In this document: piece after piece, positions 45,518-47,114 of the stretch
Layout: the number at the start of each line of letters is the position of its first letter
Position numbering within the stretch: the stretch's first letter is position 1
NCBI GenBank assembly: GCA_002686085.1
Contig: NZAC01000070.1
Location: forward strand, 1-64,000
Source: Roseibacillus sp.
Lineage (GTDB): Bacteria; Verrucomicrobiota; Verrucomicrobiia; Verrucomicrobiales; Akkermansiaceae
DNA length: 64,000 bases
Direction: 5' to 3'
The notes under the pieces: model-generated
What the model was told of the DNA's origin: nothing
The model's input: only the letters and a program-made list of their open reading frames with translations
Databases searched by the model: none
Translations under genes and position numbers: made by a program

Positions 45518-46063
45518 ATGAACCAGGAAATCCCTCTTACCCGCGATGTCGATGCCATTCAGATTCCCTCTGGTGATACCATTTCTCTCCCTGCTGGAAC
45601 GCCAGTCGTGATCACCCAGAGCCTCGGGGGTACCTATACGGTGGCCACCTCGGCCGGACTCGCCAGAATCTCTTCGAACGATGCAGATGCCCTTGGCATC
45701 GATCAGGCGGCCAATCAGGAAAAGGCTCAGAAGGACGAGGAAATGAAATCCGCTCCCTTGATGGAGCAGATCTGGCATCAGCTTAAACAGGTCTATGACC
45801 CGGAAATTCCGGTAGATATTGTCAACCTGGGACTGGTCTACGATTGCACGGTGGACGACGAGGAAGATAAAAAGGTCGTGAACGTCAAGATGACTCTGAC
45901 GGCGCCTGGTTGCGGCATGGGCCCCGCTATTGCTGCCGACGCTCAAGCACGCATCATGACGGTTGAGGAGATTGAAGATGCCCGGGTTGAGCTCGTATGG
46001 GATCCGCCCTGGAACCAGGATATGATCACGGAGGAAGGTAAGATGAAGCTCGGAATGATCTAA
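45518..46063 (+). CDS. sufT: Fe-S cluster assembly factor SufT
   Basis: SufT-type protein with an N-terminal unit (residues 1-60) unique to the family and a C-terminal MIP18/DUF59 domain. The latter has YDPEIPVDIVNLGLVY (93-108) and the cysteine in LTAPGCGMGP (Cys132). It helps mature Fe-S proteins, as part of SUF-type systems. Its pairing with the NifU/IscU-like gene supports the assignment. It is followed by 90 bp and then the small basic protein gene. Confidence 0.92.
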   Translation: MNQEIPLTRDVDAIQIPSGDTISLPAGTPVVITQSLGGTYTVATSAGLARISSNDADALGIDQAANQEKAQKDEEMKSAPLMEQIWHQLKQVYDPEIPVDIVNLGLVYDCTVDDEEDKKVVNVKMTLTAPGCGMGPAIAADAQARIMTVEEIEDARVELVWDPPWNQDMITEEGKMKLGMI

Positions 46064-46154: not shown

Positions 46155-46310
46155 ATGTCCAAGCATAACAGCCTTAAAACCAGCGGTGGATCCACCGGCA
46201 ATCGCTCCGTCCTGAAACGCTTCGAGCGCGTCAAGATTCTCAAGGAGCGCGGGCAGTGGAAAGAGGGACAAAGCCCGGTGGGCCTGCCCAAGACCAAGTC
46301 TGAGGGCTAG
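46155..46310 (+). CDS. Small basic protein of the Chlamydiae/Verrucomicrobia type
   Basis: A 51-residue, strongly basic protein, with the sequence features SKHNSLKTSGGSTGNRSVL and KRFERVKILKERGQWKEG followed by GLPKTK. This matches, from memory, the family TIGR04137 of Chlamydiae and Verrucomicrobia, linked to ribosome or rRNA. It is too short for common ORF cutoffs. ATG 46155 to TAG is an exact 52-codon frame. The next gene is a pseudouridine synthase of the RsuA family, which fits a ribosome-related role. A hairpin lies 41 bp downstream. Confidence 0.88.
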   Translation: MSKHNSLKTSGGSTGNRSVLKRFERVKILKERGQWKEGQSPVGLPKTKSEG

Positions 46311-46397: not shown

Positions 46398-47114
46398 ATG
46401 CTTGAGGGCACTCGCCTGAACAAGTTCCTTGCCTCCTGCGGATTAGGATCACGCCGCGCGTGCGACGCACTGGTCCAACGTGGTGGCGTTACTCTTAACG
46501 GAGAGGCCTGCACTAACCCAGCCACCCGCATACAGGAGGGCGACATCCTACGGGTCGAAGGCAAAAGAGTTTCTCCGAAGAAAACCACAACGATCCTCCT
46601 GAAAAAACCACGGGGGTATGTGTGCTCGAAACACGATGAGCTGGAAAGAGCAACGATCTATGAACTGCTGCCCCCAAAGTTTTCCCATTTGAACCACGTT
46701 GGCCGACTTGACCGGGATTCGGAAGGCCTTTTGGTTCTGACCAATGACGGGGACCTCGCTAACCGCCTGACCCATCCAAGTAACAAGGTTGAGAAGGAAT
46801 ATCGTGTTACTCTGACAAGCTCAATCGATTACCCGATCCTGAAGAAGCTCGTAGCAGGAGTTCAAACCCCGGAGGGATATGCCCGGGCAAAATCTATCAA
46901 AAGGCTGTCCCCACGCCGCGTCTCCATCATACTGGAAACCGGCCTGAAGCGACAGATCCGCGAAATGTTCAAAACTCTTGGATATGAGGTCGAGAAGCTT
47001 TTCCGGATAAGAATTGGCCGTCTTACCGACCCAGAGCTGCGCCCCGGCCGTTGGCGACATCTTGAGCACCACGAGATCGAGCTGCTCAGCCTTGATCCTC
47101 CGGCCGAGGCCTGA
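46398..47114 (+). CDS. Pseudouridine synthase, RsuA/RluB family
   Basis: Modifies a uridine in rRNA. An S4 RNA-binding domain opens the protein (LNKFLASCGLGSRRACDALV, about 6-60). The catalytic domain has the active-site aspartate in GRLDRDSEGLLVLTNDGDLA and the later KEYRVTL and GLKRQIREMFKTLGYEVEKL regions. Length 238 fits RluB/RluE/RsuA-type enzymes. The target (16S U516 or 23S) cannot be told. It follows the small basic protein gene. Confidence 0.93.
   Translation: MLEGTRLNKFLASCGLGSRRACDALVQRGGVTLNGEACTNPATRIQEGDILRVEGKRVSPKKTTTILLKKPRGYVCSKHDELERATIYELLPPKFSHLNHVGRLDRDSEGLLVLTNDGDLANRLTHPSNKVEKEYRVTLTSSIDYPILKKLVAGVQTPEGYARAKSIKRLSPRRVSIILETGLKRQIREMFKTLGYEVEKLFRIRIGRLTDPELRPGRWRHLEHHEIELLSLDPPAEA

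Follow-up and report, generated by a model that had tools for sequence, protein, structure and literature searches.

A gene for the PVC signature small basic protein (TIGR04137) in Roseibacillus sp. and the plausible association of its product with the ribosome

Background

A small protein shared by the PVC bacteria is reportedly described in Lagkouvardos 2014 as a PVC signature, with unspecific binding of DNA and RNA. The chlamydial counterpart, CT421.2, was listed as chlamydial in 2006 (PMC1403754), was attributed to the whole PVC group by a reviewer in 2008 (PMC2474590), and was designated a signature protein of the PVC group by Gupta 2012 (PMC3444138), as far as the accessible portions of these papers go. 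The published description of CT421.2, likewise available in part, gives a length of about 53 amino acids in chlamydiae, with a 2-residue insert, and a greater length in planctomycetes; the available text of PMC7203096 terms the signature protein a small RNA-binding protein. The family, in print since 2006-2014, belongs to a small set of markers that join the PVC bacteria. Literature searches on PVC ribosome structure, uL30 loss, and the chlamydial ybeY operon returned no functional paper on the gene, which is no proof that none exists.

Here we describe the member of this family found in Roseibacillus sp., a verrucomicrobial genome, in a window of 64,000 nucleotides (i.e., the whole stretch of DNA that was analyzed), and compare it with relatives in three phyla. 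CT421.2 and the family in the window have the same distribution, and we equate them by the published description and the chlamydial loci rather than by the CT421.2 sequence itself. In agreement with that description, the 8 proteins that we classed as chlamydial measured 51 to 53 amino acids and the 31 classed as planctomycetal measured 53 to 117 (median, 74), and most chlamydial rows displayed from our alignment A2 had a 2-amino-acid insert.

Results and Discussion

The gene and its family. The earlier note had placed a 51-residue basic protein at 46155-46310 of the forward strand, and reading of the open reading frame (ORF) bore this out. The product is MSKHNSLKTSGGSTGNRSVLKRFERVKILKERGQWKEGQSPVGLPKTKSEG, with 51 residues, a mass of 5.6 kDa, a pI of 10.75, and a net charge of +8. 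One start is possible for this ORF, because the 10 codons that separate it from an in-frame TAG, 11 codons upstream, include no ATG, GTG, or TTG. The proposed membership in TIGR04137 ("small basic protein"; Chlam_Ver_rRNA, an NCBIfam hypoth_equivalog) was confirmed by an HMM search, which gave 87.6 bits (E value, 3.4e-25) against a curated cut-off of 50 bits and aligned residues 1 to 49 of 51 with profile positions 1 to 49 of 50; this full-length match is far beyond chance, and the product is like the family in both size and basic character. It differs from the usual member in having S18 in place of N and the motif QSPVG close to the C terminus, variants that are partly common to the relatives L022, L023, and L025. 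Pfam held no model for the product, and TIGR04137 matched once in the genome of the window.

Third codon positions were the most variable in all five pairwise comparisons with relatives, with 21 to 24 synonymous and 9 or 10 nonsynonymous codon differences from L022, L023, and L025, which belong to the same family, and with 16 synonymous and 18 or 19 nonsynonymous differences from the more distant L013 and L018. A scan for promoters gave no candidate site (mean in shuffled sequences, 1.0). We regard it as confirmed that 46155-46310 is a real gene and an ordinary member of an already known family. The features discussed here are collected in Table 1.

Table 1. Features of the window and of one chlamydial locus (L072)
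Feature	Position	Strand	Basis
SufT-like Fe-S assembly gene, upstream	45518..46063	+	TIGR03406, 223.5 bits
TIGR04137/PVC signature small basic protein gene	46155..46310	+	51 aa, TIGR04137 match, codon pattern
Conserved core, codons 17-25 (R-S-V-L-K-R-F-E-R)	46203..46229	+	Alignment A2
Sole predicted secondary-structure element (alpha helix), codons 22-32	46218..46250	+	AlphaFold2 on A2
RsuA/RluB/RluF-family rRNA pseudouridine synthase gene (S4 domain + PseudoU_synth_2)	46398..47114	+	TIGR00093, PF00849, PF01479
57-aa basic ORF, upstream of signature gene	L072:3493-3663	-	ORF reading

Distribution across the PVC phyla. The family was found in 584 of the 601 PVC genomes sampled, and 581 of the 584 had one match each. 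TIGR04137 itself detected it in 283 of 288 Verrucomicrobiota genomes, and a profile from A2 detected it in 190 of 195 Planctomycetota genomes (the phylum draw of G290) and in 111 of 118 Chlamydiota genomes (the phylum draw of G288); a completeness of at least 90% was requested for these draws, those of the Planctomycetota and Chlamydiota displaying no values. The positive genomes include some of 0.9 to 1.2 Mb. Verrucomicrobiota is understood here in a broad sense, as the draw for this phylum includes proteins identical to ones from records titled Opitutia and Lentisphaerae (L019 and L101; L029 and L108). Two matches each were seen in G087, G391, and G409, and the gene of G087 is possibly split, since its best match was weak (E value, 2.4e-14). 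Among the 17 genomes with no family match, 7 were chlamydial, and for these 7 the adjacent 57-amino-acid ORF described below was lacking as well, which suggests missing contigs.

The codons of the conserved core were also used for a scan of a genome collection, which gave at least 116 stretches. Among the matches listed, all 116 stretches fell in ORFs that matched the A1 profile (E value, ≤1e-3), which had been built without them. TIGR04137 scored above its cut-off on all seven scan loci to which it was applied (four planctomycetal, two chlamydial, and one lentisphaeral). Outside the PVC group, TIGR04137 matched none of 14 control genomes, plasmid records held no family match, and none of 40 pattern matches in viral contigs was confirmed as a relative. 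At least two of the scan matches listed stood under non-PVC titles, namely, L037 (Klebsiella pneumoniae) and L052 (Proteobacteria); in both, the gene lies beside an RsuA-family gene, and the records are probably mislabeled metagenome bins. A further record, L072, is titled Verrucomicrobia and looks chlamydial by its signature protein and gene order.

For comparison, uL29 was present in all 59 Verrucomicrobiota genomes searched for it, and uS5 in all 39. The near-universal and mostly single-match presence of the small basic protein in three PVC phyla resembles the distribution of a ribosomal protein. The earlier note had called the protein phylum-specific, which is the wrong rank: since the TIGR04137 family is found across Verrucomicrobiota, Planctomycetota, and Chlamydiota, it is, as published, a family of the PVC group rather than of one phylum. 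The note's statement that the family is known from Chlamydiae and Verrucomicrobia was correct for both groups and incomplete, as the Planctomycetes carry the family too.

Gene neighborhoods in Verrucomicrobiota and Planctomycetota. An rRNA pseudouridine synthase gene had been predicted downstream, and indeed one begins 87 nucleotides after the signature gene. Its product matched TIGR00093 with 143.3 bits (cut-off, 109.3), and the RluF, RsuA, and RluB models stayed under their own cut-offs. We compared 111 loci with flanks of 1.5 to about 4 kb, of which 31 came from genome searches and 80 from the scan with its at least 116 stretches. The 80 scan loci (41 Verrucomicrobiota, 31 Planctomycetota, and 8 Chlamydiota) were grouped mostly by record title; before the neighbors were seen, L043 (titled "bacterium") and L072 were placed in Chlamydiota, L044 (also "bacterium") in Planctomycetota, and L037, L052, and L058 (titled "uncultured bacterium") in Verrucomicrobiota by protein sequence. 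Together with L001 to L031, the 41 scan loci make up 72 Verrucomicrobiota loci.

A same-strand downstream RsuA-family homologue was present in 28 of these 72 loci, including the window; of the 67 loci that had 500 or more nucleotides of downstream sequence, 27 showed it. It lay within 200 nucleotides in 26 of the 28. The other 44 loci had no pseudouridine synthase neighbor, 4 of them with less than 500 nucleotides downstream. Such a neighbor was found in none of the 31 Planctomycetota loci, 28 of which had at least 500 nucleotides downstream, and in none of the 8 Chlamydiota scan loci. The largest neighbor clusters in Planctomycetota were, by eye, aminotransferase-like (8 loci) and GH3-like (7 loci), followed by a protein that no NCBIfam model matched (6 loci), and the planctomycetal gene context gives no support for a ribosomal reading. 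Among the 22 largest neighbor clusters, few of which were identified, no ribosomal-protein operon was recognized near the gene.

The other neighbors in the window were considered as partners and set aside, as SufT, NifU, and the downstream Acs were not found again within the short flanks (1.5 to about 4 kb) of the other 110 loci; the upstream SufT-like gene is probably unrelated to the signature gene.

The chlamydial cluster. In all 18 chlamydial loci searched by tblastn, the signature gene is followed by a same-strand ybeY homologue; these loci comprise 8 from the scan and 10 from the phylum draw and represent 17 genomes (L157 and L088 are from the same genome). On one locus the assignment was confirmed by TIGR00043 (rRNA maturation RNase; 106.3 bits). 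A ybeY homologue was also present at one Verrucomicrobiota locus, L107, more than 5 kb from the signature gene.

Besides, a basic ORF of 57 amino acids was found in 110 of the 118 Chlamydiota genomes, in every case upstream of the signature gene and on the same strand, with a gap of 2 to 133 nucleotides (median, 20). It had no match in NCBIfam, Pfam, or the PDB. In about 20 genomes the match was weak (E values down to 5e-4) and is credible because of its position. The 7 chlamydial genomes without the signature gene are also without this ORF, and in G518 the signature gene is present and the ORF was not matched. We tentatively consider it possible, though somewhat doubtful, that the signature protein is a genuine and so far unseen PVC ribosomal protein whose gene in Chlamydiota forms one cluster with those of another small basic ribosomal protein (the one of 57 amino acids) and of the rRNA nuclease YbeY.

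These neighbors also raise the idea that the signature protein is a cofactor of rRNA processing, a partner of YbeY or of the pseudouridine synthase that departs ahead of ribosome maturation, an idea that overlaps with the assembly-factor half of the explanation preferred below. The same-strand linkage to ybeY (18 of 18 chlamydial loci) and to the RsuA family (28 of 72 Verrucomicrobiota loci) would fit it; however, the linked enzyme differs by phylum, and the Planctomycetota loci read show linkage to neither, so that a fixed enzyme partner is unlikely, and we regard such a processing role as rather unlikely.

Conserved core and predicted structure. In alignment A2, which has 52 rows (51 distinct, as L039 was entered twice), M1, R17, V19, L20, R22, E24, R25, and K46 are invariant across three phyla. 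AlphaFold2 with the 52 rows of A2 predicted a single helix (residues 22 to 32), no strands, and an otherwise extended chain, with a mean pLDDT of 79.7 and a pTM of 0.51; with 28 rows, the helix comprised residues 19 to 32 (pLDDT, 69.8; pTM, 0.45). A Foldseek comparison of the model with the PDB gave 12 matches (best E value, 4.5), none of them credible and none of them uL30. When the PDB was searched by sequence, neither the protein nor A1 had a match, and A2 had one chance match (E value, 0.88) and no homologous chain.

A basic sequence with a mostly extended predicted chain might also belong to a housekeeping protein that binds nucleic acids in general and has no specific place at the ribosome. 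The unspecific binding of DNA and RNA said to be reported in Lagkouvardos 2014 would accord with this, as would the lysine-rich tails of many Planctomycetota members. On the other hand, the recurrent neighbors are rRNA-maturation genes, and the strict conservation of eight positions throughout three phyla points to a specific partner, which makes a general binder quite improbable.

The absence of uL30. The ribosomal protein uL30 has a mixed alpha-beta fold, and its gene, rpmD, normally sits between rpsE and rplO. The uL30 model TIGR01308 matched none of the 288 Verrucomicrobiota, 118 Chlamydiota, and 195 Planctomycetota genomes (0 of 601 in all), in genome draws whose sizes and handles equal those behind the family count of 584 of 601, and it was positive in 10 of the 14 control genomes. 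That small ribosomal proteins can be detected in Verrucomicrobiota is shown by uL29, with 59 of 59 genomes. TIGR01308 had no match in the genome of the window or in the 30 genomes from which titled loci came, part of which also belong to the phylum draws. In 30 of 30 Verrucomicrobiota loci (L164 to L193), rplO starts 0 to 78 nucleotides after rpsE, which is too short for rpmD; here rplO was recognized with an L15 profile built from six ORFs matching TIGR01071 (NCBIfam), a strict L15 motif alone finding 9 of 30. These 30 junctions speak for the phylum, as the ribosomal-protein contig of the window's own genome ends at L18.

Two other ORFs of that genome, assigned by eye on contig C51, have unusual ends: a uS3-like ORF (L162:3982-4935, minus strand) carries long Gly/Arg/Pro-rich C-terminal repeats (GGRGPGGPGG...), and a uL22-like ORF (L162:4817-5464) ends in an acidic tail.

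The available text of PMC7203096 credits Lagkouvardos 2014 with the idea that the signature protein replaces L30 and has an L30-like fold, and that of PMC8204192 names RpmD as a protein not identified in a verrucomicrobial endosymbiont of tiny size. An absence of uL30 in Epsilonproteobacteria, given in the available part of PMC10039652, was not used as evidence, since uS2 and uS4 are also listed there as absent. A structural substitute for the missing uL30 would be a special case of a ribosomal protein. Indeed, the two proteins are of similar length, uL30 was not found in PVC genomes carrying the signature protein (0 of 601 as against 584 of 601 genomes), and the rpmD slot is closed in all 30 Verrucomicrobiota loci. 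Nevertheless, the 51-amino-acid product has no TIGR01308 match at an E value of ≤1, its model of moderate confidence consists of one short helix without strands, uL30 is not among its Foldseek matches, and its gene is located outside the uL30 slot. Furthermore, the control Synechococcus elongatus is matched by neither TIGR04137 nor TIGR01308, so that a genome without uL30 does not necessarily carry the signature protein. Taken together, we regard the replacement of uL30 as highly unlikely.

Putative function and implications. Short length, basic charge, and an extended chain are common among small ribosomal proteins. Because different rRNA-maturation enzymes are linked to the gene in two phyla and its distribution is like that of a ribosomal protein, we favor, over the other explanations, a ribosomal protein or late assembly factor that binds rRNA. 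On these grounds, this short, basic, and mostly extended protein is probably a binder of rRNA, either as a lineage-specific ribosomal protein or as a late factor of ribosome assembly, an explanation that overlaps with both uL30 replacement and a role in rRNA processing. The signature protein would bind rRNA in the cell and would be part of the ribosome or act on it; an association with the ribosome is plausible.

Species of Chlamydiota, Verrucomicrobiota, and Planctomycetota are among those whose ribosomes are wanted solved, according to the available part of PMC10039652 (2023). If the signature protein and the chlamydial 57-amino-acid product are both ribosomal, PVC ribosomes would carry lineage-specific proteins that are absent from the solved ribosomes in the PDB copy searched. 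If the signature protein is ribosomal, it would define a PVC-specific ribosome, and human pathogens are among the PVC bacteria.
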